This document shows positions 26,643 to 62,006 of a DNA stretch of 64,000 nt, in pieces. A program made the position numbers and the translations under genes. Each line of letters opens with the position of its first letter. Within the stretch, counting starts at the first letter, position 1. Origin of the DNA: Succiniclasticum ruminis DSM 9236 (GTDB lineage: Bacteria; Bacillota; Negativicutes; Acidaminococcales; Acidaminococcaceae); contig NZ_FONL01000003.1 of the NCBI RefSeq assembly GCF_900112895.1, positions 62,001 to 126,000 of the forward strand, read 5' to 3'. The notes beneath the pieces were generated by a model that was given only the letters and a program-made list of their open reading frames with translations, was not told the DNA's origin and did no database searches.

Positions 26643-29141
26643 ATGAAAGATAACAGAATGGCCCCGCAGCACATTATCGTCCGCGGGGCAAAAGTACATA
26701 ATCTGAAAAACATTGATGTGGACATCCCTCTCGGCAAGCTGGTGGCTATTGCGGGTGTTTCCGGATCCGGAAAATCCTCGCTGGCGCTGGGCACGTTGTA
26801 TGCGGAAGGGTCGCGACGATATCTGGAGGCCCTTTCCACCTATACCCGGCGCCGCATTACCCAGGCAGGCCGGGCCGAGGTTGATGAGATTAGACATGTC
26901 CCTGCTGCGCTTGCTTTGCATCAGCGTCCGGGCATTCCCGGCATCCGCAGTACCTTCGGAACCGCTTCGGAACTGCTGAACAGCCTGCGTCTGCTGTTCT
27001 CACGGCTGGGCAGTCATTGCTGCCCCAACGGGCATCCCTGCCCGCCGGACATGAATGTGGCACTGATGCTGCCTACGAAATGTCCAGTCTGCGGTGAAGA
27101 GTTTTACGGTCCCGGCGCAGAAGCAATGGCCTTTAATTCGGAAGGCGCCTGCCCCTCCTGTTCCGGCACGGGTGTGATCCGCACCGTGAATGAGGATTCG
27201 CTGGTGCCTGACGACTCCCTGACCATCGATGAAGGCGCCGTGGCGCCCTGGCAGACCCTGATGTGGTCCCTGATGAAGGATATCGCCCGGGATCTGGGAG
27301 TGCGCACCGATGTCCCATTCCGCGACCTGACTCCGGAAGAAAAGGAAATCGTCTTCCACGGACCGGCCAAAAAGCATCATCTTCTCTATATGAACGAGAA
27401 GACGAACATGGCGGGGGAGATGGATTTTACTTATTATAATGCTGTCTATACGGTGGAGAACGCGCTGGCCAAAGTCAAAGACGAAAAAGGAATGAAACGG
27501 GTGGAAAAATTCCTGCACGAGTCCGTTTGTCCTGATTGCGGCGGCACCAGGCTCTCAGAGAAAGTTCGCTCCACAACGCTGGCGGGAAAGAATCTGGCGG
27601 AAGCGACAGCTATGACGCTGGCGGATCTGATCCCGTGGGTGCAGTCTGTACCGGAAACGTTGCCGGAGGAGATGCGTCCCATGGCGGAGAGCATCATCCA
27701 GTCGTTTTTGGACAATGCCAAAAGGTTACTTGACCTCGGCCTCGGGTATCTGACCCTTGACCGGGCCAGTAATACACTCTCTACCGGTGAACGGCAGCGG
27801 GTGCAACTGGCCCGCGCTGTCCGCAACGAAACAACGGGCGTTTTATATGTACTGGACGAGCCCAGCATCGGGCTTCATCCGTCTAACATTGACGGCCTGA
27901 TGAACGTGGTGGACAGCCTGATTGCCGACGGCAACTCCGTGGTGCTGGTGGACCACGATGTCCGGGTGCTGAAACAGGCAGACCATATGATCGAGCTGGG
28001 GCCTCTGGCCGGTACCCAGGGAGGAACCGTTCTGGCCCAGGGCAGCATTAATGAGATTCTGGCAGCCGGCGCATCCAAAATTGCGCCTTTTCTGGCAGAT
28101 ACCGGGCATATGAAGATACGCAGCCGCGTTAAAGCGGCGGACGTGTTCCGCCTGGGAACGATTCGCATGGAGACGTGTCCGATCCACACCGTGCACGCGC
28201 TGAATGTTGCAATCCCCAAAGGCAGACTGACGGCGGTGACTGGCGTGTCCGGCTCCGGCAAAACGACGCTGGTGCTGGAGAGCCTGATTCCCGGACTGAC
28301 GGCGCACTGTGCAGGGGAGAAGTTGCCTTTTCCGGTGAAAACTGTTGAAGCGGAGGGAATCCGCCGCGCTAACCTGATTGATGCGTCGCCCATCGGCATC
28401 AATATCCGTTCCACGGTGGCAACCTACAGCGGCATTCTGGATGAACTGCGCAAGCTGTTCGCAGGGACGGATGCGGCGAAAGCCGGGAAGCTGAAAGCCG
28501 GCGATTTCTCCTACAACACCGGTTCCCTGCGTTGTCCGGTCTGCGACGGAACCGGGCAAATCTCCCTTGACGTGCAGTTTTTGCCGGATGTAACCATAAC
28601 CTGTCCGGAGTGCGACGGAAAACGCTACAGTGGGGAGGCGGAGAAAATCCTCTGGAAGCCGAAGGGAGCCGAAGAGGCGTTTTCCCTGCCCGCGCTGATG
28701 GCGATGACTGTGGACGACACGTTGGAACTGTTTAAGGACAGGAAGAGAATATACGAAAAACTAAAAGTGCTGCACGATCTCGGTCTGGGCTATCTTACCC
28801 TCGGAGAAGACACTCCGGCTCTTTCCGGCGGTGAGGCGCAGCGGCTGAAACTGGCCAGTGAAATGGGACGGACCCAGGAAGATTCCGTGTTCGTATTTGA
28901 TGAGCCGACAATCGGCCTGCACCCGCTGGATGTTAAGGTACTGCTGGGCGTGTTTGACCGTCTGGTGGAAGCAGGCGCTACCGTCCTTGTGATCGAGCAC
29001 GATCTGGATGTGATTGCCAACGCGGACTATGTCATCGACATGGGACCGGGCGGCGGCGAACAGGGCGGGCGTATCGTGGCCTGCGGAACGCCGGAGCAGA
29101 TCCGGCAGTCCAAAGAGAGCATTACCGGACGGTATCTGTAA
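26643..29141 (+). CDS. UvrA-like ABC ATPase lacking the UvrB-binding domain
   Basis: An 832-residue relative of UvrA, about 110 shorter than the repair protein. Two ABC halves are visible: Walker [11 protein letters not shown] near residue 38, signature [15 protein letters not shown] and DEPSIGLHP; then [25 protein letters not shown] and [10 protein letters not shown]. Zinc-finger pairs [12 protein letters not shown] and [17 protein letters not shown] are also present. After the first Walker A and the RYLEALSTY block, the chain passes straight from RLLFSRLG to the first zinc finger, so the UvrB-binding insertion is missing. Such paralogues are linked in some bacteria to drug or damage tolerance. 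Here it is a single gene after the biotin operon. Confidence 0.88.
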
Positions 29142-38888: not shown

Positions 38889-39776
38889 TCATACCGGGAA
38901 ATCCGGACGCGTTTTGTAGTAACGTTGCAATATCCGGATAAAATCGGATACAAGCTCCCGTCTGTCGCTGGCGTGGGTGCAAAGGACGCAGGAAATAGTT
39001 TCTTTGCAGTCGAAACGCGTCCAGGCAAATTCCCCGTTGTGGTCATTGAGAAAACCGGGCGCCAGGCAGATACCTTTATGGGATGCCACATTGGTGAGCG
39101 TGGTGTCGTGGTCATTGCTGTTAAAGTGGGCAAGATGAAGTTTCTGCAGCACCCGCTGTTGTACAGCGCGCAGTTCCGGCTGGGAACCGCCGCCCACCAT
39201 CAGCGTGCGTCCTGCCAAATCGTCAATCACGATTTTGTCTTTTTGCGCCAGCGGATCCGTCGTTTCGCTGATGAGATAAATTTTGCTTTTGAACAGCGGA
39301 TGAATTTTTATGTCGGGGATGCGTTTCATGTCTTCCTCTCTGGCAAAGACCATATCCTGCTCGCCCCGTAGAAACCTGTCGAAACTGTGGAGGGGGATAA
39401 ATTCCGGCGTAACGGAAACGCCTTCATGGGTGTGCTCAAATTCTTCAATCGCCTGAGGCAGGAAATAAATAGCGGAACGCATGGGCAGGCCGACGGTCAG
39501 GTTGGAGTGATACCGGCGGCTGTTATTCTGCCCCTGCTCAATGGCGCGTTTTAATTCATCCCGCAGATTTCCCAAAACCAGACAGAATTGTTGTCCCGCC
39601 GGGGTGAGAGCGGCGCCTTTCCCGGAACGGTGGAAAATCGGGAAGCCGATTTCCTCTTCCGCGGTTTTAATGTGGTAGGTCAGAGTCGGCTGCGTAATAT
39701 AAAGATTTTCGGCAGCCCGGTTGAAATTCAGCGTCTGCGCCAGCATCAGGATGCAGTCAATTTGTTTGCTGTTCAT
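38889..39776 (-). CDS. LysR family transcriptional regulator (LysR-1)
   Basis: A 295-residue LysR regulator. The N-terminal helix-turn-helix is clear: LMLAQTLNFNRAAENLYITQPTLTYHIKTAEEEIGFPIFHR. The ligand-binding part follows (YHSNLTVGLP... and LVSDFIRILQRYY at the end). It is divergent from the aldo/keto reductase gene at 40034, the usual arrangement for a LysR protein and its target. Between them lies a perfect dyad ATAGAAA-A-TTTCTAT (39890-39904). ATG 39776 has GGAGG 7 bp upstream on this strand; an in-frame ATG seven codons earlier lacks one. The inducer is unknown. Confidence 0.92.
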   Translation of the reverse strand: MNSKQIDCILMLAQTLNFNRAAENLYITQPTLTYHIKTAEEEIGFPIFHRSGKGAALTPAGQQFCLVLGNLRDELKRAIEQGQNNSRRYHSNLTVGLPMRSAIYFLPQAIEEFEHTHEGVSVTPEFIPLHSFDRFLRGEQDMVFAREEDMKRIPDIKIHPLFKSKIYLISETTDPLAQKDKIVIDDLAGRTLMVGGGSQPELRAVQQRVLQKLHLAHFNSNDHDTTLTNVASHKGICLAPGFLNDHNGEFAWTRFDCKETISCVLCTHASDRRELVSDFIRILQRYYKTRPDFPV

Positions 39777-39889
39777 AATATTCCTCCATTGGTGCATTGT
39801 CCATTTTCCTGTATTACGGAAGTAAGGTACGGAAACCGATTGTGGTCGGAACTATTCGGGCCTGCAGGCTTTTCCCTTATTATAATCTA

Positions 39890-43766: not shown

Positions 43767-43834
43767 CTATGCTTTTTTGTTATAGCAGTGCTGCAAAACA
43801 GGCATTGTACATTCTGGCGAAGATAGGTTATAAC
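43767..43834 (+). promoter_or_regulatory. LysR-2-type promoter, copy B (DUF362/flavodoxin unit)
   Basis: CTAT-N11-ATAG at 43767-43785 (T-N11-A LysR box), then GGCATTGTAC with TTGTAC at 43805-43810 as -35, an 18-bp spacer, and TATAAC at 43829-43834. It shares its layout and long stretches with copies A (49072) and C (52724). Confidence 0.8.
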
Positions 43835-43924
43835 TATATTATGGAAGTTTGTATTCTTTTTTAAACACGCCACGAAGGCAGGTTGCGGGACGCAGGAGCG
43901 TCCGGCGTAAGAAAGGAGACCATC

Positions 43925-44866
43925 ATGACAGAATTCAAACAGGCGCCGGTTGTAGGAAGCAAGCGGGTGGACGCAGGAGCGCCCGGAACGAAAGCAAAGG
44001 TTTATTTTACCCGTACGATTGACGCGGAACATTTAATTAAGCTTTACAATTTAGTGAATGAAAATATTTACGGCAAAGTAGCTATTAAGCTGCACACCGG
44101 AGAAAAGCACGGTCCCAACATTTTGCCCCGGGATATGGTACAGGCTTTTCAGGCGACCGTTCCTGACAGCGCCATCGTGGAAACGAATACACTGTATCCG
44201 GGCGACCGCTATACCACGGAAGAGCATCGGGACACGCTGAAAGTGAACGGCTGGACTTTCTGCCCGGTGGATATTCTGGATGAAGAAGGCGATGTAGCAT
44301 TGCCGGTACGCAACGGCTTACGGTTGAAAGAAGTGCATATGGGCGGTCATCTCACCGACTATGATTCCCTGATTGTGCTGACGCATTTTAAAGGACATGC
44401 CATGGGCGGATTTGGCGGTTCCATGAAAAATATCGCTATCGGCTGCGCTTCCGGACAGGTCGGCAAACGGGAAGTGCATCTGGTAGTGGACGACATGCCG
44501 GCTAATTTTGAAGAATGGCCCATGAAAGAACAGTTTATGGAAACCATGGCGGATTCCGCTAAGGCGACCTGTGATTATTTCGGCAAACACATTGTGTTCC
44601 TCAATGTGATGCGCCGCATGTCCGTAGACTGCGACTGCGCAGGTGTGGCAGCGGAAGAACCCACCATTGCGGATATCGGCATCTGTGCTTCCACGGATAT
44701 TCTGGCCATTGATCAGGCCTGCTGTGACATGGTATTCACCAAACCGGAAGGCGACCAGAAGGATCTGGTGGAACGCATCACCAGCCGTCACGGTTTGCAT
44801 CAGCTCACCGCCATGCGGAAACAGAAGATGGGCAATCCCCAATACGAACTGATCGAAGTGGAATGA
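43925..44866 (+). CDS. DUF362 domain protein (cytoplasmic)
   Basis: A 313-residue DUF362 protein without signal peptide. Blocks shared with the lipoprotein at 37758 are VYFTRTIDAEHLIKLY, KVAIKLHTGE, IVETNTLYPGDRYTTEEHRDT, VDILDEEGDVALPV, THFKGHAMGGFGGSMKNIAIG and IGICASTDILAIDQACCDM. Several cysteines (CDCAGVA and the ACC pair) could be redox-active, but there is no ferredoxin CxxCxxC motif. It has its own LysR-2-type promoter 90 bp upstream and leads into the lipoprotein flavodoxin gene 104 bp later. Function of the family is not established; DUF362 is often linked with iron-sulfur or quinone chemistry. Confidence 0.87.
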   Translation: MTEFKQAPVVGSKRVDAGAPGTKAKVYFTRTIDAEHLIKLYNLVNENIYGKVAIKLHTGEKHGPNILPRDMVQAFQATVPDSAIVETNTLYPGDRYTTEEHRDTLKVNGWTFCPVDILDEEGDVALPVRNGLRLKEVHMGGHLTDYDSLIVLTHFKGHAMGGFGGSMKNIAIGCASGQVGKREVHLVVDDMPANFEEWPMKEQFMETMADSAKATCDYFGKHIVFLNVMRRMSVDCDCAGVAAEEPTIADIGICASTDILAIDQACCDMVFTKPEGDQKDLVERITSRHGLHQLTAMRKQKMGNPQYELIEVE

Positions 44867-44970
44867 ATGACGTTGCAGCAGCATGCTGAAAGCAACGTAC
44901 GTAAAGCTTGCAACAGACAGGCTGCAAAACAGTTTTGAATTACTGGTTTAAAAACGAGGGGGTAATTATA

Positions 44971-45654
44971 ATGAAACGGGTTTTATTTTTCCTGACCGCG
45001 GTTTTTCTGTTAGCTGCGTTCGCCGGTGGTTGCGGTGGTGAAAAGAAAGCGGAAAAGCCGGCGGCAAAACCGGCAGCAACGGAAACGAAAAAAGCGGAAG
45101 CGGCTCCGGCTCCTTCGGCAGGAGGCAAAAAAATTTTAGTCGCATACTTCTCCCGAACGGGTGAAGAGTACGGCGTGGGTGTAATCACCAAAGGCAATAC
45201 AGCGGTGGTTGCGGATGCCATTGCGGAAATTACCGGAGCAGATAAATTTGAAATAAAAACGGTGAAAGCGTATCCCCAGGCCTATCGGGAAACTACGGAC
45301 GTGGCAAAAAAAGAGAAGCAGGACAACGTCCGTCCGGAAATTGTGGGCAAACCGGGAAATCTGAAAGACTACGATACGGTATTTTTAGGTTATCCCATCT
45401 GGTGGAGCGACCTGCCCATGGCCGTATACACTTTTTTGGAAAACAACGACTTTAACGGCAAGACCATCATTCCGTTTTGCACCAGCGCAGGCAGCTATAT
45501 GACCGGCAAGGAAAGCCGCATTACCGACCACGCCAAAGGCGCAACAGTCCTGAACAAAGGGCTGGGCCTGCCGGGCCGTATGTCCCAGGAAGATCCGAAA
45601 GCGGTGAAGTCCGAAGTGGGAAAATGGCTTAAGGAGATTGGCTACGCAAAATAA
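44971..45654 (+). CDS. Flavodoxin lipoprotein (extracytoplasmic)
   Basis: A 227-residue protein with a lipoprotein signal peptide (MKRVLFFLTAVFLLAAFAGGC, lipid Cys at 21), an Ala/Lys/Pro-rich linker (residues about 25-52), and a complete flavodoxin domain: ILVAYFSRTGEEYGVG phosphate loop, YDTVFLGYPIWWSDLPMAVYTFLE and TIIPFCTSAGSYM. Flavodoxins are normally cytoplasmic, so surface anchoring is notable. It is a close relative of the cytoplasmic flavodoxin at 43151. GAGGGGG lies before the ATG. It is probably cotranscribed with the DUF362 gene and ends at a strong terminator. Confidence 0.9.
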   Translation: MKRVLFFLTAVFLLAAFAGGCGGEKKAEKPAAKPAATETKKAEAAPAPSAGGKKILVAYFSRTGEEYGVGVITKGNTAVVADAIAEITGADKFEIKTVKAYPQAYRETTDVAKKEKQDNVRPEIVGKPGNLKDYDTVFLGYPIWWSDLPMAVYTFLENNDFNGKTIIPFCTSAGSYMTGKESRITDHAKGATVLNKGLGLPGRMSQEDPKAVKSEVGKWLKEIGYAK

Positions 45655-45668
45655 AATATCTTATTCTT

Positions 45669-45698
45669 ACGGCCGCAGATGATTCTGCGGCCGTTTTT
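45669..45698. terminator. Terminator between convergent genes
   Basis: ACGGCCGCAGA-TGAT-TCTGCGGCCGT, followed by TTTTGTT on the plus strand. Confidence 0.9.
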
Positions 45699-45699
45699 G

Positions 45700-46686
45700 T
45701 TACTTACACTGCTTTTCCCAGAAGGCGGCAGCGCGATGGATCCAGCCTTCGGCAACAGTGCCTTCCCCCAGTCCGAAACCGTGGGGCAGGCCGGGGAAGA
45801 TTTCGATTTCCGCATCAGTGCCGTTGGCGCGGATGGCCTGTATGCGACGCTGCATGGTGTGGGAAGAAGCAATCCAGTCGCCGGTGCCGACGCAGTTATA
45901 GGTCGGGGGTTCGTTGCCGTAGACTTCAGACAGACCGGTGTATTGCATAATCACAGCTGCCGGACGGGGGCAGGGCTTTTCACCGAAGGATTCTGTACCG
46001 AGGGAACCCAGCCAGGCTGCCATGCGGGCGCCGGCGGAACCGCCCCAGAGGGAATAGTTGGACGGATCAACCTGCAATTCGCCGGCGTGAGTATGGATAA
46101 AGGCGATGGCCCGGGCCAAATCTTCACAGGCCTTTTGCGCATCGGGGCGGTAAATCAGAGCGAAAGCGTTGTAATCTTTCCTGGATAATTCCAACGCATG
46201 GGGAAAACTGTCGTGCATAGCGCCTACGTAGGAAAAACCGCCGCCTGCGTTTAACAGGGCAAACCGATTGCCCGGCCTGCCCCGGAAGAAAAAGAGACCC
46301 GTATTGCGTTTGCGCGGGTCTTTTTGTTTTTCTTCGTCAGAGTAGATGTCGTAAAAAATCTGCTGGCCCTTTTGTGCCTGCGTTTTCATATAGTTTACGA
46401 TTTCCACAGTGCGTTCCGGTCGGACATTGTTATACCAAACCAAAATATCGCCGATGTCTTTCAAAGCAAGGTCACGGCTGATGTGCCGGTCCACCGGGAA
46501 AATCAGCCGGCCGTGGCTGCGAAACGCAGGATCGTTTATTACATCAACAACTTTTGTTTCCAAATGGAACGGTGTTTCTGCTTGCATGGCGGATTCCTTT
46601 TTTGCGCTGCTTTTGCTTTCGCCGCAACCGGTGCAGGTGATCAGCATCAGGGACAGAGAGAGGATTAGAAAAATTGTTTTTTTCAT
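45700..46686 (-). CDS. Alpha/beta hydrolase, probable lipoprotein
   Basis: A 328-residue hydrolase with an N-terminal hydrophobic signal ending in cysteines (LITCTGCGES), which suggests a lipoprotein. Fold landmarks are a GGGFSYVG oxyanion loop, the Ser elbow LWGGSAGARMAAWLG, and GLPHGFGLGEGT with the catalytic His. This set is typical of the BD-FAE/acetylesterase-like branch (fold-3). Substrate is unknown; short-chain esters are usual. It converges on the flavodoxin lipoprotein gene and lies 15 bp after the 46702 hydrolase on the same strand, so the two are likely cotranscribed. Confidence 0.85.
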   Translation of the reverse strand: MKKTIFLILSLSLMLITCTGCGESKSSAKKESAMQAETPFHLETKVVDVINDPAFRSHGRLIFPVDRHISRDLALKDIGDILVWYNNVRPERTVEIVNYMKTQAQKGQQIFYDIYSDEEKQKDPRKRNTGLFFFRGRPGNRFALLNAGGGFSYVGAMHDSFPHALELSRKDYNAFALIYRPDAQKACEDLARAIAFIHTHAGELQVDPSNYSLWGGSAGARMAAWLGSLGTESFGEKPCPRPAAVIMQYTGLSEVYGNEPPTYNCVGTGDWIASSHTMQRRIQAIRANGTDAEIEIFPGLPHGFGLGEGTVAEGWIHRAAAFWEKQCK

Positions 46687-46701
46687 TTTTATTGTTTTGG
46701 T

Positions 46702-47814
46702 TTATTTATCCAGCTTTTGTTCCCGCAGCCACTTGTCGAACAAATCAGCCAGCTGCCCGTTGTTCAGGTCGCTCATGAGGAAATGCGTGTTGCCTTTGAT
46801 ACCCAGCTTTGGCAGTTCCACCAGTGTGGCATTGCCGCCGTGCCGGTTGATGGCTTCCGTAAATTTCCGGGCCATCTGCAGACGGACGCGCCAGTTTTCA
46901 CCACCCAATTTGTTGGTTACCTCTTCCGGAATATAATCGCCAAAATACATGACGATGGGAATCTCCGTCAGCCGCCGGAACTGTTCCATGGGAACGGGAA
47001 CACCGGAGGCTGTGCCGGTTAAACTGGGCATGGGGTCCGGTACTTCACCTTCCGGGAACACGTAACCGCCCGGCTCGTAGGAAGCCACTGCTTTTACATT
47101 TTTATTGCCCATGGCGGAAAGCCAGCCGGGGAAACCGCCTGCGGAATGGGTAACCAGGACGACGCCGTTTGCGTTTTTGGACGAAGAACCGTTCTTCGCT
47201 GTCATGGCAACGGTCTTATCAATGGCGGCGCTGATGGATGCTACATCCGTTTTCATATTATGAGCGCTTACGTCCGGCGTCATTTCCCGGAAAAACTGAT
47301 CCAGTGTTTCCGCGTCTTTAGGGAACTGCACGTCGCTGTGATAATTCGGGTATTCGCCCAACCGCCAGATATCGAACCACAGCATCTCGTCCGCTTTGGG
47401 AGTCAGAGTCGTTGTGGCAGAAGTTTTACCGGCGCGCCCCCGTCCGGGCAAATCCATGATAAAAGCGGGGTAGTGCCTGCGCAGCATTAAAGTGGAGAAA
47501 CCTTCCCGTCCGTCCGGCGTCATTTCCCAACAAAGGCCGGACCCGCCGTAACCGTGGATAAAAAGCAACGGCGCGTTTTTGGCCCTGGCGGGAATCTGAT
47601 AACTGACAATAGCATGGTCGGCGCGATAGCTTTGTCCCTGCTCGATGGGACTGGCCCAGCCGCCAAACTTTTTGTTGTCATAGGTTCCTTCGCGCTGGAT
47701 GGTAATTCCCCCGGCGGCAAAATGTCCCTGGGTCTCCAGCGTCAGTTTTTCATTGGCAAAAGCGCCGGTAGAAAACAGTGTCAGCATGGCGAGGAGTGCA
47801 GCAGTTTTTTTCAT
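46702..47814 (-). CDS. Exported alpha/beta hydrolase, paralogue of 41049
   Basis: A 370-residue exported hydrolase with signal peptide MKKTAALLAMLTLFSTGAFA. Landmarks are FIHGYGGSGLCWEMTPDGREGF, the Ser elbow LVTHSAGGFPGW, SYEPGGYVFP and the end IKGNTHFLMSDLNN with the catalytic His. It matches the hydrolase at 41049 block by block, so the island has two diverged copies. ATG 47814 has AGGAAAGGG upstream on this strand; an in-frame ATG eight codons earlier is less likely. It lies on the minus strand downstream of the aldo/keto reductase at 47919, with a 104-bp gap, and may share that gene's transcript. Confidence 0.87.
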   Translation of the reverse strand: MKKTAALLAMLTLFSTGAFANEKLTLETQGHFAAGGITIQREGTYDNKKFGGWASPIEQGQSYRADHAIVSYQIPARAKNAPLLFIHGYGGSGLCWEMTPDGREGFSTLMLRRHYPAFIMDLPGRGRAGKTSATTTLTPKADEMLWFDIWRLGEYPNYHSDVQFPKDAETLDQFFREMTPDVSAHNMKTDVASISAAIDKTVAMTAKNGSSSKNANGVVLVTHSAGGFPGWLSAMGNKNVKAVASYEPGGYVFPEGEVPDPMPSLTGTASGVPVPMEQFRRLTEIPIVMYFGDYIPEEVTNKLGGENWRVRLQMARKFTEAINRHGGNATLVELPKLGIKGNTHFLMSDLNNGQLADLFDKWLREQKLDK

Positions 47815-47918
47815 GATAAAACCCTTTCCTGTTATCAATTATCAAATTTATAGTTTCTGTTTAAATTGCAATAGCATTCTTATCTTTATTTTATTTTGTT
47901 TCTTTTGTTTTTATTCGT

Positions 47919-48911
47919 TTACTTTTTTACCGGTGATCCGCCGAAGACAGCGGACATTTTCATGTGATTCAGCTTTGTATCTATAGCCGCCACTTCGTCT
48001 GCGGTTAAAATCACATCTGCCGCGCCGAGGTTTTCTTTTATGCGCGAAAGTTTACGGGAGCCGGGTATCGGTACGATATACGGCTTTTTACAGAGCATCC
48101 ACGCCAGCGAGATCTGGGCGGGGGATGCGCTTTTTTCTTTTGCCAGCGTATGAATCAGCGCCAGCAGTTCCCGGTTCTGTGCAAAGGCTTCGTCGGCATA
48201 TTGGGGCATAACGCTGCGATAGTCTTCCTTGCTGAACGTTTCGCCCGCCTTGAAGGCGCCGGAAAGAATACCGTTGGCCAGCGGTGAAAAGGCAACATAA
48301 CCTATCGTTAATTCTTCCAGTACGGGGAACAGACTTTCATGCCAGCGGGCCATCATGGAGTACCGGTTCTGGATACAGGTGACGGGACAGACGGCGTGGG
48401 CTGCACGCAGATAGGTTTCGTCTGCTTCGGAAATACCCCAATGCAGTATTTTTCCTTCTTTAATTAAATCGGCCATCGCGCCCGCCACTTCTTCCGCCGG
48501 AATTTTGGGATCGATGCGGTGCTGGTAATACAGGTCGATTACATCCACGCCCAGTCGTTTCAGACTTCCGTCAATGGATTTGCGGATCGTTGCCGGACGG
48601 GAATCCATGACGAGCTGGCGGTTTTCGTGGCGCACGCCGAACTTGGTGGCTATTTTTACTTCATTGCAGATGGGCGCCAGCGCTTTTCCCACCAGCTCTT
48701 CGTTATAACTGGTGCTGCCGTCGGCGTATTCTCCCACATAACACTCTGCAGTATCAAAGAACGTGCAGCCTTCTTCCGCCGCCGCGCGGATCGCTGCAAT
48801 TGCGTCGGCCTCATCGGTGGGCGCGCCATAGGCATGCGAAAAACCCATGCAGCCCAGGCCTACGGCGGAGACGGTTAAATCGTTGCCCAATGTGCGATAG
48901 TTCATGTTCAT
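47919..48911 (-). CDS. Aldo/keto reductase (second copy)
   Basis: A 330-residue aldo/keto reductase. The tetrad is seen as FFDTAECY (Asp, Tyr), IATKFGV (Lys) and YYQHRIDPKIP (His), and the cofactor end is PIPGSRKLSRIKENLGA. It resembles the YakC/IolS branch and differs clearly from the reductase at 40034, so it is not a recent duplicate. Two ATGs are possible: 48911, with GAGG only 3 bp away, and 48905, with GAGG 9 bp away; the second may be the true start. It is first of a minus-strand run of three genes (reductase and two hydrolases). Confidence 0.9.
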   Translation of the reverse strand: MNMNYRTLGNDLTVSAVGLGCMGFSHAYGAPTDEADAIAAIRAAAEEGCTFFDTAECYVGEYADGSTSYNEELVGKALAPICNEVKIATKFGVRHENRQLVMDSRPATIRKSIDGSLKRLGVDVIDLYYQHRIDPKIPAEEVAGAMADLIKEGKILHWGISEADETYLRAAHAVCPVTCIQNRYSMMARWHESLFPVLEELTIGYVAFSPLANGILSGAFKAGETFSKEDYRSVMPQYADEAFAQNRELLALIHTLAKEKSASPAQISLAWMLCKKPYIVPIPGSRKLSRIKENLGAADVILTADEVAAIDTKLNHMKMSAVFGGSPVKK

Positions 48912-49071
48912 TATCCTCGTCTTTCTTGCGGTTTCCGTGATGTATTTTACAAATAACGTGCTCCGCTTTTTCTGCGTTGTCTTTATTGTAAATTGCCTTT
49001 TCTCGTTTGTACAATATCAGAAACGAATAACAGTATAAGCAAAACGGATAGTGAAATACGGTTTGATTTCT

Positions 49072-49138
49072 CTATGCGTTTTTGTTATAGCACATTGCGG
49101 AATCGGCATTGTACTTTTTCAACGGAAAACAATACAAT
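49072..49138 (+). promoter_or_regulatory. LysR-2-type promoter, copy A (hydrolase/cupin unit)
   Basis: CTAT-N11-ATAG at 49072-49090, then CACATTGC and GGCATTGTAC with TTGTAC at 49109-49114 (-35), an 18-bp spacer, and TACAAT at 49133-49138. The remaining bases of 48912-49269 hold no convincing gene; the leader after the start of transcription is about 125 nt. Confidence 0.82.
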
Positions 49139-49269
49139 CAAATCAGCAAAGCGGAAACCAAATCGGATTTTTCTATAAGTTGTATTCCGTGCAGTACCGT
49201 TTCCGCACTGCGCGGAAGATGCCGGAACTGTTTCGACCGGTTATATTTAAAAAAGAAAGGATGAAAAAC

Positions 49270-50355
49270 ATGATGTTTAAGAAAAAAATGATGGCAGCTT
49301 CTCTGATGGCGCTCGTATTAGGCTTCTCTACCATGGCTTTTGCAGCGGAAGCACCGGCTGAAAACCCCTTTGGTCTTGTGTACCGCGGCGCTATTACACA
49401 AAACGAAAAAGGCAAGGTGAATATCCGTCCTGTGGAGTACAAGGTGGAAGGCATCAAGGTCGCGGCGAATCTCTACCTGCCGGCAGATTATGACGAGAAA
49501 AGCAGCAAGCGTTATCCTGCCGTGACTGTCGCCCATCCCAACGGAGGCAGCAAGGAGCAGGTGGCCGGTCTTTATGCCCAGCGGTTGGCGGAGCTTGGCT
49601 ATATCGCCATTGCCTGTGATGCCCGCTATCAGGGAGAGAGCGGCGGAGAGCCGAGACTGAGGGATTATCCCTCGAACCGCATAAAGGACATCAGCGGCAT
49701 GGTGGATTATCTCTCTACGCTCCCGAAAGTGGATAAGTCTCGTATCGGCTCCCTCGGTATCTGCGGAGGCGGCGGCTACACATTGGCGGCGGCGCAGACC
49801 GACAAACGCATCAAGGCGGTGGCCAGCCTCTCCATGTTCAACTCCGGCAGAGTGCGTCGGAACGGCTTCCTGGACGCGGATATCAAGGGCGCTCAAGCAA
49901 GAATGCAAAGGGCGGCGGCCGCGAGAGATAAAGAACTGGCGGGGGAAATCGTCTATGAGGGCTTCCTGCCCCCCAATTCCACTGATGAACAACTGCGGGC
50001 GAAAATGGCAGAGCTTCCCGAAAACACCCTCTACCGTGACGGCATTGAATACTATGGCCTGACGCACCGCCATCCGAACGCCACGGGGAGCTACACCACG
50101 GAATCCTTCATGAAGCTCATGGCCTTTGATGTGGAAGACAGAATGGATCTCATCAACCAGCCACTCCTGATGATCGCAGGAGAAAAGGCAGACACCCTCT
50201 ATATGACGAAGGATGCTTTTGCCAAGGCAAGCGGCGCGGAGAACAAAGAACTTTTCATGATTGAAGGCGCCAGCCATATCCGCACCTATTGGGTGCCGGA
50301 GTATGTGAACAAGGCAGTCAATAAGCTGAAAGAATTCTACGGAAAACATCTGTAA
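49270..50355 (+). CDS. Exported alpha/beta hydrolase (dienelactone-hydrolase-like)
   Basis: A 361-residue exported hydrolase with signal peptide ending FSTMAFA. Fold landmarks are NLYLPADYDEKSSKRYPAVTVAHPNGG, CDARYQGESGGEP, and the nucleophile elbow LGICGGGGYT, where Cys replaces the usual Ser, as in dienelactone hydrolases. LMIAGEKADTLYM holds the Asp region and GASHIRTYW the His. It belongs to the branch often annotated only as alpha/beta hydrolase. The first ATGs at 49261, 49270 and 49273 compete; GAAAGG is best spaced for 49270. It follows LysR-2-type promoter A and precedes the cupin gene by 46 bp. Confidence 0.87.
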   Translation: MMFKKKMMAASLMALVLGFSTMAFAAEAPAENPFGLVYRGAITQNEKGKVNIRPVEYKVEGIKVAANLYLPADYDEKSSKRYPAVTVAHPNGGSKEQVAGLYAQRLAELGYIAIACDARYQGESGGEPRLRDYPSNRIKDISGMVDYLSTLPKVDKSRIGSLGICGGGGYTLAAAQTDKRIKAVASLSMFNSGRVRRNGFLDADIKGAQARMQRAAAARDKELAGEIVYEGFLPPNSTDEQLRAKMAELPENTLYRDGIEYYGLTHRHPNATGSYTTESFMKLMAFDVEDRMDLINQPLLMIAGEKADTLYMTKDAFAKASGAENKELFMIEGASHIRTYWVPEYVNKAVNKLKEFYGKHL

Positions 50356-50401
50356 TAATAAATGGTTGGGTCGTAACCGGCATGGTGGAAAGGTGATTTT
50401 T

Positions 50402-51298
50402 ATGAACAAAAAAATGATTGCGGCGTTGGGATTGTGTCTGTGCAGCATCGCGTCCTTTGCGTTTGCCGACACAGGAAACTGGAAATATCCGCCGGGCAAG
50501 GATGTGTCCAGCCGGTTTGCCGGCACGGTGTATCGCAACGATCTGATTGATCTGGATCCTACATACAATGTTCCCCAGACAAATTGTATTTCTTTTGAGC
50601 CGGGCAGCCGCAGCGCCTGGCATGTACACGGCGGCATGGTGGTCGTGGGACTGGATGGCGTCGGTCTGCTGCAGATTGACGGGCAGCCTGCTATGATCAT
50701 CCGCAAAGGCGATGTGTTACAGATTCCCGCCGGTGTCAGCCACTGGCACGGGGCGGCAAAAGATTCCCGTTTCCAGCAGCTGGTGATTTACGATAAAAAC
50801 TGGAAAGCGCCCGCCGGCCTGAAGGCCCGCACCGGCATGATTTCCGACGAGGAATACGCAAATCTGGAACTGGTAGAAGCGCCCCGGAAGGCAGTTCCTG
50901 CCAAAGGGTTCACCTTTGCCGCAGAAAAATTCAATTCGCCGAACTTTAACAAACCGGTGTATCTGGGTCGGACTTTAACAACACCGAATGCGGCGGGCGC
51001 GCCTGCATATTCCTATGTGTTCTTCCCCAAAGGCGTTTACAACAAATGGCATATGCACGGGGAAGGGCAGATCCTGATCGCAACTGACGGAATCGGCCTG
51101 CACCAGATGCGCAACGGCGAGATTCAGGTGATGCGGCCCGGCGATGTGGCCTACTGCCCGCCGGGGGAAACCCACTGGCACGGCGCCGCGCCTGACAGCA
51201 GCTTTGCCCATCTGGCCGTGAGCCCGGCAGGAAAGCATACGGTAGAGTGGTACGACTTCCTGGATAAAAAGGAATACAAAAAGGCAGCGGTGAAATAA
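50402..51298 (+). CDS. Exported double-cupin protein
   Basis: A 298-residue protein with a signal peptide (residues 1-22, cut after FAFA) and two cupin domains. Cupin 1 (about residues 60-145) has FEPGSRSAWHVHGGMVVVGLDGVG and IPAGVSHWHGAAKDS. Cupin 2 (about 195-285) has FFPKGVYNKWHMHGEGQILIATDGIG and CPPGETHWHGAAPDS. Each has the His-x-His...second His set for one metal. It is related to the cupin half of the protein at 36788 (VKHWHGAAADS). It probably forms an operon with the exported hydrolase under LysR-2-type control. AAAGGTGA precedes the ATG. Confidence 0.9.
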   Translation: MNKKMIAALGLCLCSIASFAFADTGNWKYPPGKDVSSRFAGTVYRNDLIDLDPTYNVPQTNCISFEPGSRSAWHVHGGMVVVGLDGVGLLQIDGQPAMIIRKGDVLQIPAGVSHWHGAAKDSRFQQLVIYDKNWKAPAGLKARTGMISDEEYANLELVEAPRKAVPAKGFTFAAEKFNSPNFNKPVYLGRTLTTPNAAGAPAYSYVFFPKGVYNKWHMHGEGQILIATDGIGLHQMRNGEIQVMRPGDVAYCPPGETHWHGAAPDSSFAHLAVSPAGKHTVEWYDFLDKKEYKKAAVK

Positions 51299-51352
51299 AT
51301 ACTGTTCTGTATAAGTTGTCTTCTTCAAAACGATTTGTAAACGCAACTTAAA

Positions 51353-51425
51353 TTGAAAAACGCTCTGCGTGATGTGAAACAAACAGAAACGGGTTTCACA
51401 AACATGCAGAGCGTTATTTTTACTT
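51353..51425. terminator. Long hairpin between convergent genes
   Basis: AACGCTCTGC...GTGAAAC pairs with GTTTCAC...GCAGAGCGTT, with T runs after it on the plus strand. Confidence 0.8.
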
Positions 51426-51493
51426 TTTTTTTGAAAATGGCAGAGATGTTTTAAAGATTTCAACAGCAGTACAGAAACGAATACATCGTCTTG

Positions 51494-52663
51494 TTAATAC
51501 GCCGATGCGAAAATTTCCCGGATGTCTTCCCGGGTCAGCCTGCGGTAGCTGCCGGGGGAGAGGAAGCAGGTGTCGGCAATTTCTTCCGCCTGTTGTTTGT
51601 CTGTTACGCCCAGTTCCCACAGGGTGGTGGGCAGGCCGATTTCCTTAATAAAATCTGCCAGGGCGTCAATCCCCGCCAATGCCAGCTCTTCATCGGTTTT
51701 TCCTGTTGGATCGATGCCCCATACGTTTGTGGCGAAGCGTACGAATTTGGGCAGGCCGTCCTTATAAATGTGACGGTAGTAGGGCGGATGCAGTACGGCC
51801 AGGCCGCAACCGTGGTTGCAGTCTGTGTACGCGCCGACCTGATGCTCCATCAGGTGGCACTCGAAGTCGGTCTTTTTGCCTAATTTCAGCACGCGGTTTT
51901 CTGCCATGGTAGAGGCCCATACCAGATTGCTGCGGGCTGTGTAGTCATCCGGATCGGCGATCGCTTTGCGCAGATCGCGGATGACGCCCCGCATCAGGGC
52001 TTCATTGATATCGTCGGATACGTTGTCCTCATTAGGAAGGCTGAAATAGATTTCCATCATGTGGGACAGGGAATCAAAGCTGCCGGAAACCATCTGTTTC
52101 TTCGGCACGCTGTAGGTGTACAGCGGATCAAGCAGCGCAAACTGTGCGTTCAGCGCCGGATAATCGCGGCCGGTTTTAATCTTCATGATTTCGTTGGTAA
52201 TGACGGCGCCGCCGTTCATTTCGCTGCCGGTACCGGTCACGGTCATGACGATGCCCAGTGGGACAGGAGAGACAGAAACGGTTCCGGCTTTCATCCAGAA
52301 ATCATCCCAGACGTCCCCATCGTATACGGCGGCCAGTGAGATTGCTTTGCAGCAGTCCATGACGGATCCACCGCCCACGGCCAGGATCAGGTCGATCTGT
52401 TTTTCTTTTGCAAGCTTTGCGCCTTCCAGCACTTTAGTGTAAACCGGGTTGGACATAATGCCGGAAAACTCCGTCACGGTTTTTCCCGCCGCTTTTAAAA
52501 TTTCCGTAATTTCTTCATAAATTCCGTTGCGTTTAATGGAGCCTCCGCCGTAAGCAAGCATCACATTTTCGCCGTACTGTTTCAGAACGTCCGGCAGGTA
52601 CTGACTGACACAGCCTTTGCCGAAGTATGCCTTTGTCGAATTCTCAAAAATAAAATTTTCCAT
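51494..52663 (-). CDS. Iron-containing alcohol dehydrogenase
   Basis: A 389-residue group-III alcohol dehydrogenase of the YqhD/BdhA type. The NAD(P) site is LILAVGGGSVMDCCKAISLA with GGGS, and metal ligands appear as Asp in LNAQFALLDP, His in DSLSHMMEIYFS, and His residues in ECHLMEHQVGAYTDCNHGCGLAVLHP. YqhD-type enzymes reduce short aldehydes such as acrolein and malondialdehyde with NADPH, which would fit an aldehyde-detoxifying island. ATG 52663 has GGGAGG 7 bp upstream on this strand. It is divergent from LysR-2, and LysR-2-type promoter C lies between them. Confidence 0.93.
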   Translation of the reverse strand: MENFIFENSTKAYFGKGCVSQYLPDVLKQYGENVMLAYGGGSIKRNGIYEEITEILKAAGKTVTEFSGIMSNPVYTKVLEGAKLAKEKQIDLILAVGGGSVMDCCKAISLAAVYDGDVWDDFWMKAGTVSVSPVPLGIVMTVTGTGSEMNGGAVITNEIMKIKTGRDYPALNAQFALLDPLYTYSVPKKQMVSGSFDSLSHMMEIYFSLPNEDNVSDDINEALMRGVIRDLRKAIADPDDYTARSNLVWASTMAENRVLKLGKKTDFECHLMEHQVGAYTDCNHGCGLAVLHPPYYRHIYKDGLPKFVRFATNVWGIDPTGKTDEELALAGIDALADFIKEIGLPTTLWELGVTDKQQAEEIADTCFLSPGSYRRLTREDIREIFASAY

Positions 52664-52723
52664 GTTAGTTCCTCCCTTGACGTTGCACAGGTGCAAAGCC
52701 TTCTGGCCTTTGTTTACAGTTCT

Positions 52724-52790
52724 ATTGTAGAGTTTGCGGAGAAAAAAGTACAATACCAATCCTGCAATGTGTTATAATAAAATTGCATAG
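52724..52790 (-). promoter_or_regulatory. LysR-2-type promoter, copy C (alcohol dehydrogenase)
   Basis: On the minus strand: CTAT-N11-ATAA box from 52790, then CACATTGC and GGTATTGTAC, with -35 TTGTAC at 52753-52748, an 18-bp spacer, and -10 TACAAT at 52729-52724. On the plus strand the same DNA offers a TATAAT at 52773-52778 for the LysR-2 gene, so binding here may also autoregulate. Confidence 0.82.
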
Positions 52791-52832: not shown

Positions 52833-53690
52833 ATGATTGAACTGGCGCAGCTCCGGCATCTGGCAGCGTTCCATCAGTCTGGCACGCTGTCTCAGGCAGC
52901 AGAAGAGCTTCATATTTCCCAGCCGGCATTAAGCCGTTCTATGCAGAAGCTGGAAGAAGAACTGCAGGTGCCGTTGTTTGAACGGCAGAAAAATAAAATA
53001 CGCTTGAACGCAAACGGTCAGATGGCGGTAGAACATGCTCAGCGTATTTTAGAAGATGTGAAGGAAATGGCGGAACAGGTACGGGCTTTGGACCGCCGCA
53101 GCCATACCATCGCGTTGGGCAATTGCGCTCCCGCCCCCGGCTGGTCAGCTGTGCCGGTGCTTTCCAATTTATATCCTGGGATGACCATTTCTTCGGAAGT
53201 ACAGGAGATTCCGCAACTGATTGACGGTTTGCGGGACGGAACTTATCAGATCATCACGCTTCCGTATGCGCTGGCGGACGAAGCCTTTTATTGCCAGGCT
53301 GCACAAAAGGAAACGCTGTTCCTTTGCCTGCCGCCAAAGCACCCCTGTGCACAAAAAGTCGAAACCGGGATGAACCTGGAAGAAATCGACGGAGAGACGG
53401 TGCTCCTGTTTTCCACGCTGGGCTTCTGGCATTCCGTTCATGTTAAGTTGATGCCCCATTCCCGTTTTTTAATTCAGCACGACCGGGATACATTCAGCGA
53501 GCTGGTGAATACCACCATGCTGCCATCTTTTATGACGAATCTTTCGGTAAAATATTTCGGGAAAAACAATGACCGGGTGCTGGTTCCCCTGTTGAACCCG
53601 GAGGCCAGCGTAACTTTCCACTTCCTTTGCCGGAAAGAGAATTACAAAAAGCTGAAACCGTTTTTCAGGCAGTTGCCAAAGGGTGAATAG
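52833..53690 (+). CDS. LysR family transcriptional regulator (LysR-2)
   Basis: A 285-residue LysR regulator. The DNA-binding helix-turn-helix is LRHLAAFHQSGTLSQAAEELHISQPALSRSMQKLEEELQVPLFER. The ligand domain has IALGNCAPAPGWSAVPVLSNLYP and ends in FRQLPKGE. A cysteine in the first strand of the sensor domain (GNCAPAP) is near the ligand pocket. It is divergent from the alcohol dehydrogenase gene, and its own upstream region carries copy C of the long promoter block also found at 43767 and 49072. I therefore infer it is the regulator of all three units. AGGAGGG precedes the ATG. Confidence 0.92.
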   Translation: MIELAQLRHLAAFHQSGTLSQAAEELHISQPALSRSMQKLEEELQVPLFERQKNKIRLNANGQMAVEHAQRILEDVKEMAEQVRALDRRSHTIALGNCAPAPGWSAVPVLSNLYPGMTISSEVQEIPQLIDGLRDGTYQIITLPYALADEAFYCQAAQKETLFLCLPPKHPCAQKVETGMNLEEIDGETVLLFSTLGFWHSVHVKLMPHSRFLIQHDRDTFSELVNTTMLPSFMTNLSVKYFGKNNDRVLVPLLNPEASVTFHFLCRKENYKKLKPFFRQLPKGE

Positions 53691-61367: not shown

Positions 61368-62006
61368 ATGGATTTTATCAGAGCGAGAAGCGAGGAGCAG
61401 AAAAGAATAAGAATAGAACAGATTACAGAAGTGGCGGCGGAGCTGTATGTGGAAATCGGATACGACAAAGTGACTTATTCAGAGATTGGGCGGAAGCTAA
61501 ATTTTACGCGCCGTAACCTGTATAATTATTTTCGTTGCAAGGAAGATATCTTCCTGACACTTTTGCTGCAGGATATTGACAAAATGGTGGAAGATGCTGA
61601 AAAATCATTCACGGAACCGGTCGCGGATCAGGAGAAATTCTGCCTTGCCTGGGCCGGTATGCTGCTTCGTCATCAGCGGATGCTGGCCTTGTTCGGCATT
61701 GTGAATACAGTCATTTTGAAAGATGCTTCTTCCGATGTGCATCGCGGTTTCCGGATCGAGATGAACCGTTCGTTTAACAGGCTGAAGGCGGTGGTGCAAC
61801 GAATCTTTCCCAAGTTTTCTGAGGAACAGGCATGTCAGTTTGTTGAGTACGAAAACAGCTATGCGATGACGTTGTATCCGGCGAGCCTGGAATATAAAGA
61901 GTTCCATCATATCGAAATATTCCCTGATGCAGGCTTTGGCACAAAGGGCTTTGTACCCCAGTTTGTAAAGTATTTGAGGAGGCTGCTGAAAGGGTTGCAG
62001 GAGTAA
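61368..62006 (+). CDS. TetR/AcrR family transcriptional regulator
   Basis: A 212-residue TetR regulator and a close paralogue of the one at 11704. DNA-binding blocks are ITEVAAELYVEIGYDKVTYSEIGRKLNFTRRNLYNYFRCKEDIF. The C-terminal domain shares LRHQRML.LF.I.NTVIL.DASS and LTLYPASLEYK-like sequence (MTLYPASLEYK) with the paralogue, so both may sense similar ligands. ATG 61368 was preferred over GTG 61359. It follows the MATE exporter gene, which suggests it governs efflux, while its paralogue follows a binding lipoprotein gene. Confidence 0.9.
   Translation: MDFIRARSEEQKRIRIEQITEVAAELYVEIGYDKVTYSEIGRKLNFTRRNLYNYFRCKEDIFLTLLLQDIDKMVEDAEKSFTEPVADQEKFCLAWAGMLLRHQRMLALFGIVNTVILKDASSDVHRGFRIEMNRSFNRLKAVVQRIFPKFSEEQACQFVEYENSYAMTLYPASLEYKEFHHIEIFPDAGFGTKGFVPQFVKYLRRLLKGLQE

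Follow-up and report, generated by a model that had tools for sequence, protein, structure and literature searches.

Four promoters within 9 kb of the Succiniclasticum ruminis DSM 9236 genome (contig NZ_FONL01000003.1) share a control block of about 70 letters, and the LysR-type transcriptional regulator (LTTR) encoded beside one of them, here called LysR-2, very probably controls the four neighbouring gene sets through it. The blocks, named A to D (Table 1), lie in a stretch of 64,000 nucleotides (positions 62,001 to 126,000 of the contig), which we call the window and whose own numbering is used throughout. A preliminary description of this DNA had counted three such promoters, A, B and C, and assigned them to LysR-2; the fourth, D (49051, reverse strand), was added by a scan for both boxes of the block. 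Judging from sequence comparison, we hold it highly likely that all four blocks are operator-promoters of the LysR type and are bound by LysR-2; they would then form a regulon of four local units.

Every block contains two T-N11-A halves. The first reads CTAT-N11-ATA(G/A/C), and the second reads TGC-N7-G(C/T)A in A, B and C and TTC-N7-ATA in D. From one box centre to the other, the distance is 21 bp in B, C and D; in A, which has one extra base, it is 22 bp. The design previously given to A, B and C was correct as to their positions, the CTAT-N11-ATA(G/A) half and the exact TTGTAC-N18-(-10) core of all three; the CATTGC-like middle that formed part of it is present as CATTGC in B and C, and is GTGCTGC in A. 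The recognition boxes of B and D have centres 39 bp apart. In pairwise comparisons across A to D, 13-18 of 19 positions are identical in box 1 and 8-10 of 10 in box 2, and only 2-11 of 18 in the spacer between -35 and -10. What is conserved are the boxes and their spacing, not the whole DNA of the blocks. If the start is assumed to lie 7 bp past the -10, box 1 is centred at about -64. In published LTTR promoters, as described in PMC5603801, a T-N11-A recognition site (RBS) is located near -65 and an activation site (ABS) near -35; A to D have this layout of LTTR-activated promoters. From such geometry, activation and not repression would be the expected mode of control. Plain strong core promoters were ruled out as an explanation, the conservation reaching more than 35 bp upstream of the -35 and into other families, and thus beyond core promoter needs, as had been claimed.

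In the 2.54-Mb genome, the block is unique to these four places. The 21-base first half has three exact matches, namely A, B and C; with up to three mismatches allowed, four further places appeared, whereas the reversed control pattern had five. A genome-wide scan for the two-box pattern (CTAT-N11-ATA, gap, ATTGTAC) covered two gap lengths and included reversed controls. Without mismatches, the pattern was found at four places, B, C and D having one gap length and A a gap one base longer. One further place was found at one mismatch, and at two mismatches there were 9 and 13 other places versus 17 and 14 in the reversed controls. A genome scan had been recommended in the preliminary description, and its outcome agrees with the proposal made there: the mismatch-free two-box pattern occurs nowhere but in A to D, all of which stand before genes. 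When the window was scanned for both boxes and scored without reference to genes, four perfect scores (14/14) were obtained, and 15 shuffled windows never gave more than 12.

A matrix built from eight sites outside the genus, each in the divergent promoter of a LysR-2 homologue with 40-50% identity (hereafter the outgroup matrix), ranked the same four blocks at the top of the window (B 54.7, C 51.0, A 42.2, D 41.6), with the fifth score at 11.4; on 40 shuffled windows, the mean maximum was 4.4 (standard deviation 3.6) and the highest value 12.5. A model of 19 blocks, including A to D, was run over the window's genome, where 150 of 775 first-look candidates were scored, and yielded 68.6, 58.5, 55.5 and 54.9 bits for the four sites, the next among the scored candidates reaching 12.5 bits. 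Since this model was trained on A to D and the candidates were scored in part, the pattern searches provide the better test of uniqueness.

The block also follows the LysR-2 clade. Hereafter, G000 is the window's genome, other G numbers denote genomes and L numbers loci; L064, L065 and L066, apparently the same records as G002, G007 and G005, were counted once. Orthologues of LysR-2 were found in G002 (99%), G007 (75%) and G005 (74%), and all three have a block at the place of C; the G007 block, found at two contig ends with identical letters, was taken as one. The alcohol dehydrogenase behind C is present at 87-100% in exactly four of 14 genus genomes, the same four that possess LysR-2 at 74% or above. 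A mirrored second half, (G)TACAATGC(C/T)A, was also seen just upstream of box 1 in G007 and G005 (L048 about 8234 and 10335, L049 about 532, all on the reverse strand), which results in a long inverted repeat around box 1.

The two-box layout is also present beside LysR-2 homologues in other families and orders. A scan of the collection provided 18 loci with LysR-2 relatives, and a phylum-wide sample of 398 genomes, with at most six candidates scored in each, contained one further relative at E ≤ 1e-60. A scan of 790 kb of loci for the full layout detected sites scoring at least 21 in 13 of the 21 clade loci, each at the junction with lysR (G000, G002, G005, G007, G354 and L067-L074); the eight loci outside that set were G004, G008, G025, G036, G043 and L075-L077. 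Shuffled sequence gave 2.9 sites per Mb at score 19 and none at 20 or more. The junction sites have a gap of 12 (13 in L074) and a best spacer of 18 (19 in L069), and in L067 the opposite flank of lysR has a further block, which precedes a flavin reductase gene. The same scan gave no sites in L078-L081, the four weakest collection matches (26-32%). Nor was any block found at the 27 control loci, which belong to other LTTRs of five genus genomes and include near-identical orthologues; the best outgroup-matrix score there was 13.6. In a tree of 47 LTTRs, which carries a warning of long branches, G043 included, the 20 LysR-2-type rows stood apart from the 27 others (100/100). The block label fell on 15 of the former and on none of the latter, and none of 500 label shuffles required as few changes. 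Because the outgroup matrix, the junction sites and the lack of blocks at other LTTRs all point the same way, control by LysR-2 is well supported by comparison.

The genes that follow the block elsewhere resemble those of the window. It precedes aldo-keto reductases in L067, L068, L074, G008, G004 (59% identity) and, by eye, G354; the reductases of G004 and G008, each preceded by a block with the same two boxes, share 58-59% identity with the product of 47919-48911. Further targets are a flavodoxin-ferredoxin protein in L070, a cupin in G007 and flavodoxins in G010 and G013.

Several observations weigh against LysR-2 control, at least in its full extent. First, the outgroup training sites were originally recognised with a consensus shaped by A, B and C, so that the matrix test was not wholly blind; the positions of these sites beside lysR junctions were not chosen. 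Second, the block of L069 faces a Lon-type protease and not a reductase. Third, the outgroup matrix found no block at the lysR junctions of the clade members G004, G008, L075, L076 and L077, and the junction blocks of G025, G036 and G043, three of the 15 labelled rows in the tree, are weak by the same matrix (15-23). A possible site in G025 (20.4 bits in the 19-block model, 0.4 by the outgroup matrix) was not counted. Fourth, the DUF362 gene is preceded by block A also in G003, G010 and G013, in which no LysR-2 match was found at E ≤ 1e-30 (assemblies 88-94% complete) and the listed LTTRs all fall outside the LysR-2 clade. In a regulon the operator is expected to be absent where the regulator is absent, and these three genomes contradict this. 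Fifth, another block of this kind occurs in G010, G013 and G006, the last of which has no LysR-2 match either; a contig end cuts the G006 copy, and the gene behind the block, where the contig extends far enough, encodes a flavodoxin. Finally, the DUF362 gene has another promoter in G001, G002 and G011, in G002 despite the presence of LysR-2. This promoter (L086, L087 and L088, respectively) is also LTTR-like and reads ATGC-N7-GCAT followed by (G/A)GCATTAGAC-N18-TATAAT.

The relatives are mostly metagenome-assembled genomes and several genus assemblies are 73-94% complete, so that gene absence is weak evidence, and incompleteness could explain some absences of LysR-2. The blocks in G003, G010, G013 and G006 (L044, L045, L046, L172, L173 and L150) may be served by another regulator, may be relics, or may point to missing contigs. 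At the place of the flavodoxin block, the sequence has decayed in G003 and another gene is present in G000. G000 has an extra gene of 410 amino acids (L176:7532-8764) just upstream of a flavodoxin gene, where sister species have a block of the LysR-2 type. Since A is kept in genomes in which no LysR-2 was found and is replaced in G001, G002 and G011, it belongs to the regulon with less certainty than B, C and D do. The earlier assignment of A, B and C to LysR-2 gains support from the outgroup matrix and the tree, with A as its least certain part.

This leads to the question whether A is instead controlled by a different LTTR, one whose operator is similar and which is present also in G003, G010 and G013, so that LysR-2 would run B, C and D. 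We regard this as possible but unlikely. The extra base between the boxes of A and its own middle would fit, as would its persistence in three genomes without a LysR-2 match, and these three genomes contain orthologues (95-98%) of the LTTR at G000:C14:136761. However, A and B are identical at 18 of 19 positions in box 1 and 10 of 10 in box 2, A scores like D with the outgroup matrix, and none of the 27 loci of other LTTRs has such a block.

LysR-1 (38889-39797, reverse strand), the other LTTR of the island, is a very improbable regulator of the blocks. It is encoded in the same island and has orthologues of 82-91% in G001, G002, G005 and G011 and of 56% in G007, but its distribution does not match that of the blocks: the search for LysR-1 orthologues found none in the A-carrying genomes G003, G010 and G013 (G010 gave a 25% match only), and G001 and G011 possess LysR-1 without a convincing block (best 16.1 and 13.0 bits). 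LysR-1 goes rather with the ATGC-N7-GCAT promoter of the DUF362 gene in G001, G002 and G011, and the best outgroup-matrix score at its own locus is 11.4. Both its distribution and this promoter association disfavour it. Least credible of all is a single promoter cassette recently duplicated without any shared regulator, since the boxes and spacing of the four blocks were kept while their spacer sequences diverged and the same layout recurs beside LysR-2 homologues of other families and orders, a result that contradicts recent duplication despite the location of all four within 9 kb and the near-identical box 1 of A and B.

As for LysR-2 itself, its structure model has a mean predicted local distance difference test score (pLDDT) of 91.2, and the top PDB matches are OxyR, BenM and CbnR. 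No NCBIfam family was above its cut-off among the best 25 of 52 matches. The loop after the first effector-domain strand reads GNCAPAP, with GSCAPxP as the consensus of the homologues; Cys98 is kept in 12 of 13 aligned homologues, and Pro100 and Pro102 in all 13. In the model, Cys98 lies between strand 92-97 and helix 100-113, and in the alignment with BenM it falls close to the beginning of the effector domain, a region which we take to be the effector pocket of LTTRs. OxyR, a thiol-based LTTR in which Cys199 has a role in thiol sensing, is the best PDB match of LysR-2 both in sequence and in fold, and LysR-2 likewise has a conserved cysteine. However, identity in the fold alignment is about 20%, and Cys98 follows the first effector-domain strand instead of standing at the place of Cys199, so direct thiol sensing through Cys98 would be a guess. 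Somewhat speculatively, LysR-2 might be the founder of an LTTR family, uncharacterised and at home in anaerobic gut bacteria, that detects reactive carbonyls or other electrophiles directly via Cys98 of the GSCAPxP loop, and whose own rigid two-site operator moves between orders and is placed before reductases, flavodoxins and exported hydrolases; we put this forward as a tentative idea. A search of open-licence papers, whose wording may have missed some, returned no characterised regulator of this type, nor its partners or family. As a side observation, five of the seven LTTR genes of the genome (E ≤ 1e-8) lie within 41 kb of one contig (G000:C14:101591-142399), in and just past the window.

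Two known arrangements invite comparison. The aldehyde-responsive YqhC-YqhD-DkgA system of E. coli (dkgA presumably being the same gene as yqhE) has a similar arrangement: the regulator gene diverges from that of a YqhD-like dehydrogenase, and an aldo-keto reductase gene is linked to it. Such a divergent regulator gene is a general trait of LTTRs, and lysR-2 (52833, forward) diverges from the alcohol dehydrogenase gene (52663, reverse) with block C in between. In contrast to LysR-2, YqhC is an AraC/XylS protein, and the island additionally contains flavodoxin, DUF362, cupin and exported hydrolase genes. The best NCBIfam model for the alcohol dehydrogenase is PRK15138, which we take to be E. 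coli YqhD, at 244.4 bits against a cut-off of 645, so that it falls short of YqhD proper. With these differences, the island looks like a LysR-run analogue of YqhC-YqhD-DkgA; PMC5297802 describes the aldehyde response and calls the second gene yqhE. As for operator-promoters of the BenM/CbnR/PnpM type, they too have a T-N11-A box near -65 and a second site next to the -35, according to PMC5603801 and PMC11739112. Here, unlike in those systems, the second site is also T-N11-A (in A to D and the majority of outside copies), and four local promoters appear to share one regulator.

The targets, with the exception of the L069 protease, have in common a predicted NAD(P)H- or flavin-linked reduction, and they would probably serve to reduce and hydrolyse reactive carbonyl or electrophilic compounds in an inducible manner. 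The double cupin scores 170.5 bits with NF049940, above the cut-off of 140 for (R)-mandelonitrile lyase; such a cupin is unexpected for a gut anaerobe. Elsewhere in the window, positions 26643-29141 encode an 832-amino-acid UvrA-like ABC protein with a UvrA DNA-binding domain.

Table 1. Blocks A to D, the genes behind them and the proposed regulator (window coordinates).
Feature	Position	Strand	Remarks
Block A	43767..43834	+	upstream of DUF362 gene
Block A boxes	43767-43785; 43792-43804	+	box 1 CTAT-N11-ATAG; box 2 TGC-N7-GCA
Block A core	43805-43810; 43829-43834	+	-35 TTGTAC; 18 bp; -10 TATAAC
DUF362 protein	43925..44866	+	target of A; PF04015; ATG by inspection
Flavodoxin lipoprotein	44971..45654	+	probably co-transcribed with DUF362 gene; PF12682; lipoprotein signal and ATG by eye
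Alpha/beta hydrolase lipoprotein	45700..46686	-	downstream of D; PF20434; lipoprotein signal by eye
Exported alpha/beta hydrolase	46702..47838	-	downstream of D; PF12697; signal peptide by eye
Aldo-keto reductase	47919..48911	-	target of D; PF00248
Block D	48985..49051	-	missed earlier; precedes aldo-keto reductase and faces away from B
Block D boxes	49051-49033; 49027-49015	-	box 1 CTAT-N11-ATAC; box 2 TTCGTTTCTGATA
Block D core	49014-49009; 48990-48985	-	-35 TTGTAC; 18 bp; -10 TACAAT
Block B	49072..49138	+	upstream of hydrolase-cupin unit
Block B boxes	49072-49090; 49096-49108	+	box 1; box 2
Block B core	49109-49114; 49133-49138	+	-35; 18 bp; -10 TACAAT
Exported alpha/beta hydrolase (DLH/S15-like)	49270..50355	+	target of B; PF01738, PF02129; signal peptide by eye
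Exported double-cupin protein	50402..51298	+	(R)-mandelonitrile-lyase-like; PF07883; signal peptide by eye
Iron-type alcohol dehydrogenase/aldehyde reductase	51494..52663	-	target of C; PF00465
Block C	52724..52790	-	upstream of alcohol dehydrogenase, divergent from lysR-2
Block C boxes	52790-52772; 52766-52754	-	box 1; box 2
Block C core	52753-52748; 52729-52724	-	-35; 18 bp; -10 TACAAT
TATAAT	52773..52778	+	possible lysR-2 -10 within box 1 of C; possible autorepression; no good -35 by eye
LysR-2	52833..53690	+	proposed regulator; LTTR of 285 amino acids; PF00126 68.8 bits, PF03466 44.6 bits

We propose the following model of LysR-2 control. A LysR-2 tetramer would occupy the CTAT-N11-ATAG box (T-N11-A, at about -64) as its recognition site and also the second T-N11-A half, 21 bp or two turns downstream and beside TTGTAC, as its activation site. 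Upon effector binding, the tetramer would shift and help RNA polymerase at promoters with an 18-bp spacer. At C, the recognition box would cover a TATAAT possibly serving lysR-2, so that LysR-2 probably limits its own synthesis. The claim that C overlaps the lysR-2 promoter is borne out in so far as this TATAAT lies in box 1; no good -35 was seen with it by eye. According to the model, the regulon would comprise the DUF362-flavodoxin unit, the hydrolase-cupin unit, the aldo-keto reductase with its hydrolases, and the alcohol/aldehyde dehydrogenase.

Such a regulon is new as a member and ordinary in kind, its regulator belonging to an uncharacterised family and its operator being very clear. 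Two features are surprising: that distant families keep so rigid a layout, and that blocks are present in sister species in which no regulator was found. Redox genes with vague names (DUF362, flavodoxin lipoprotein, cupin, hydrolases) would thereby become one testable regulon with operator coordinates, and the search matrix may assign targets to a LysR family for which no characterised member was found. Through the conserved cysteine, electrophile sensing could be tested directly in anaerobes of the rumen and gut.

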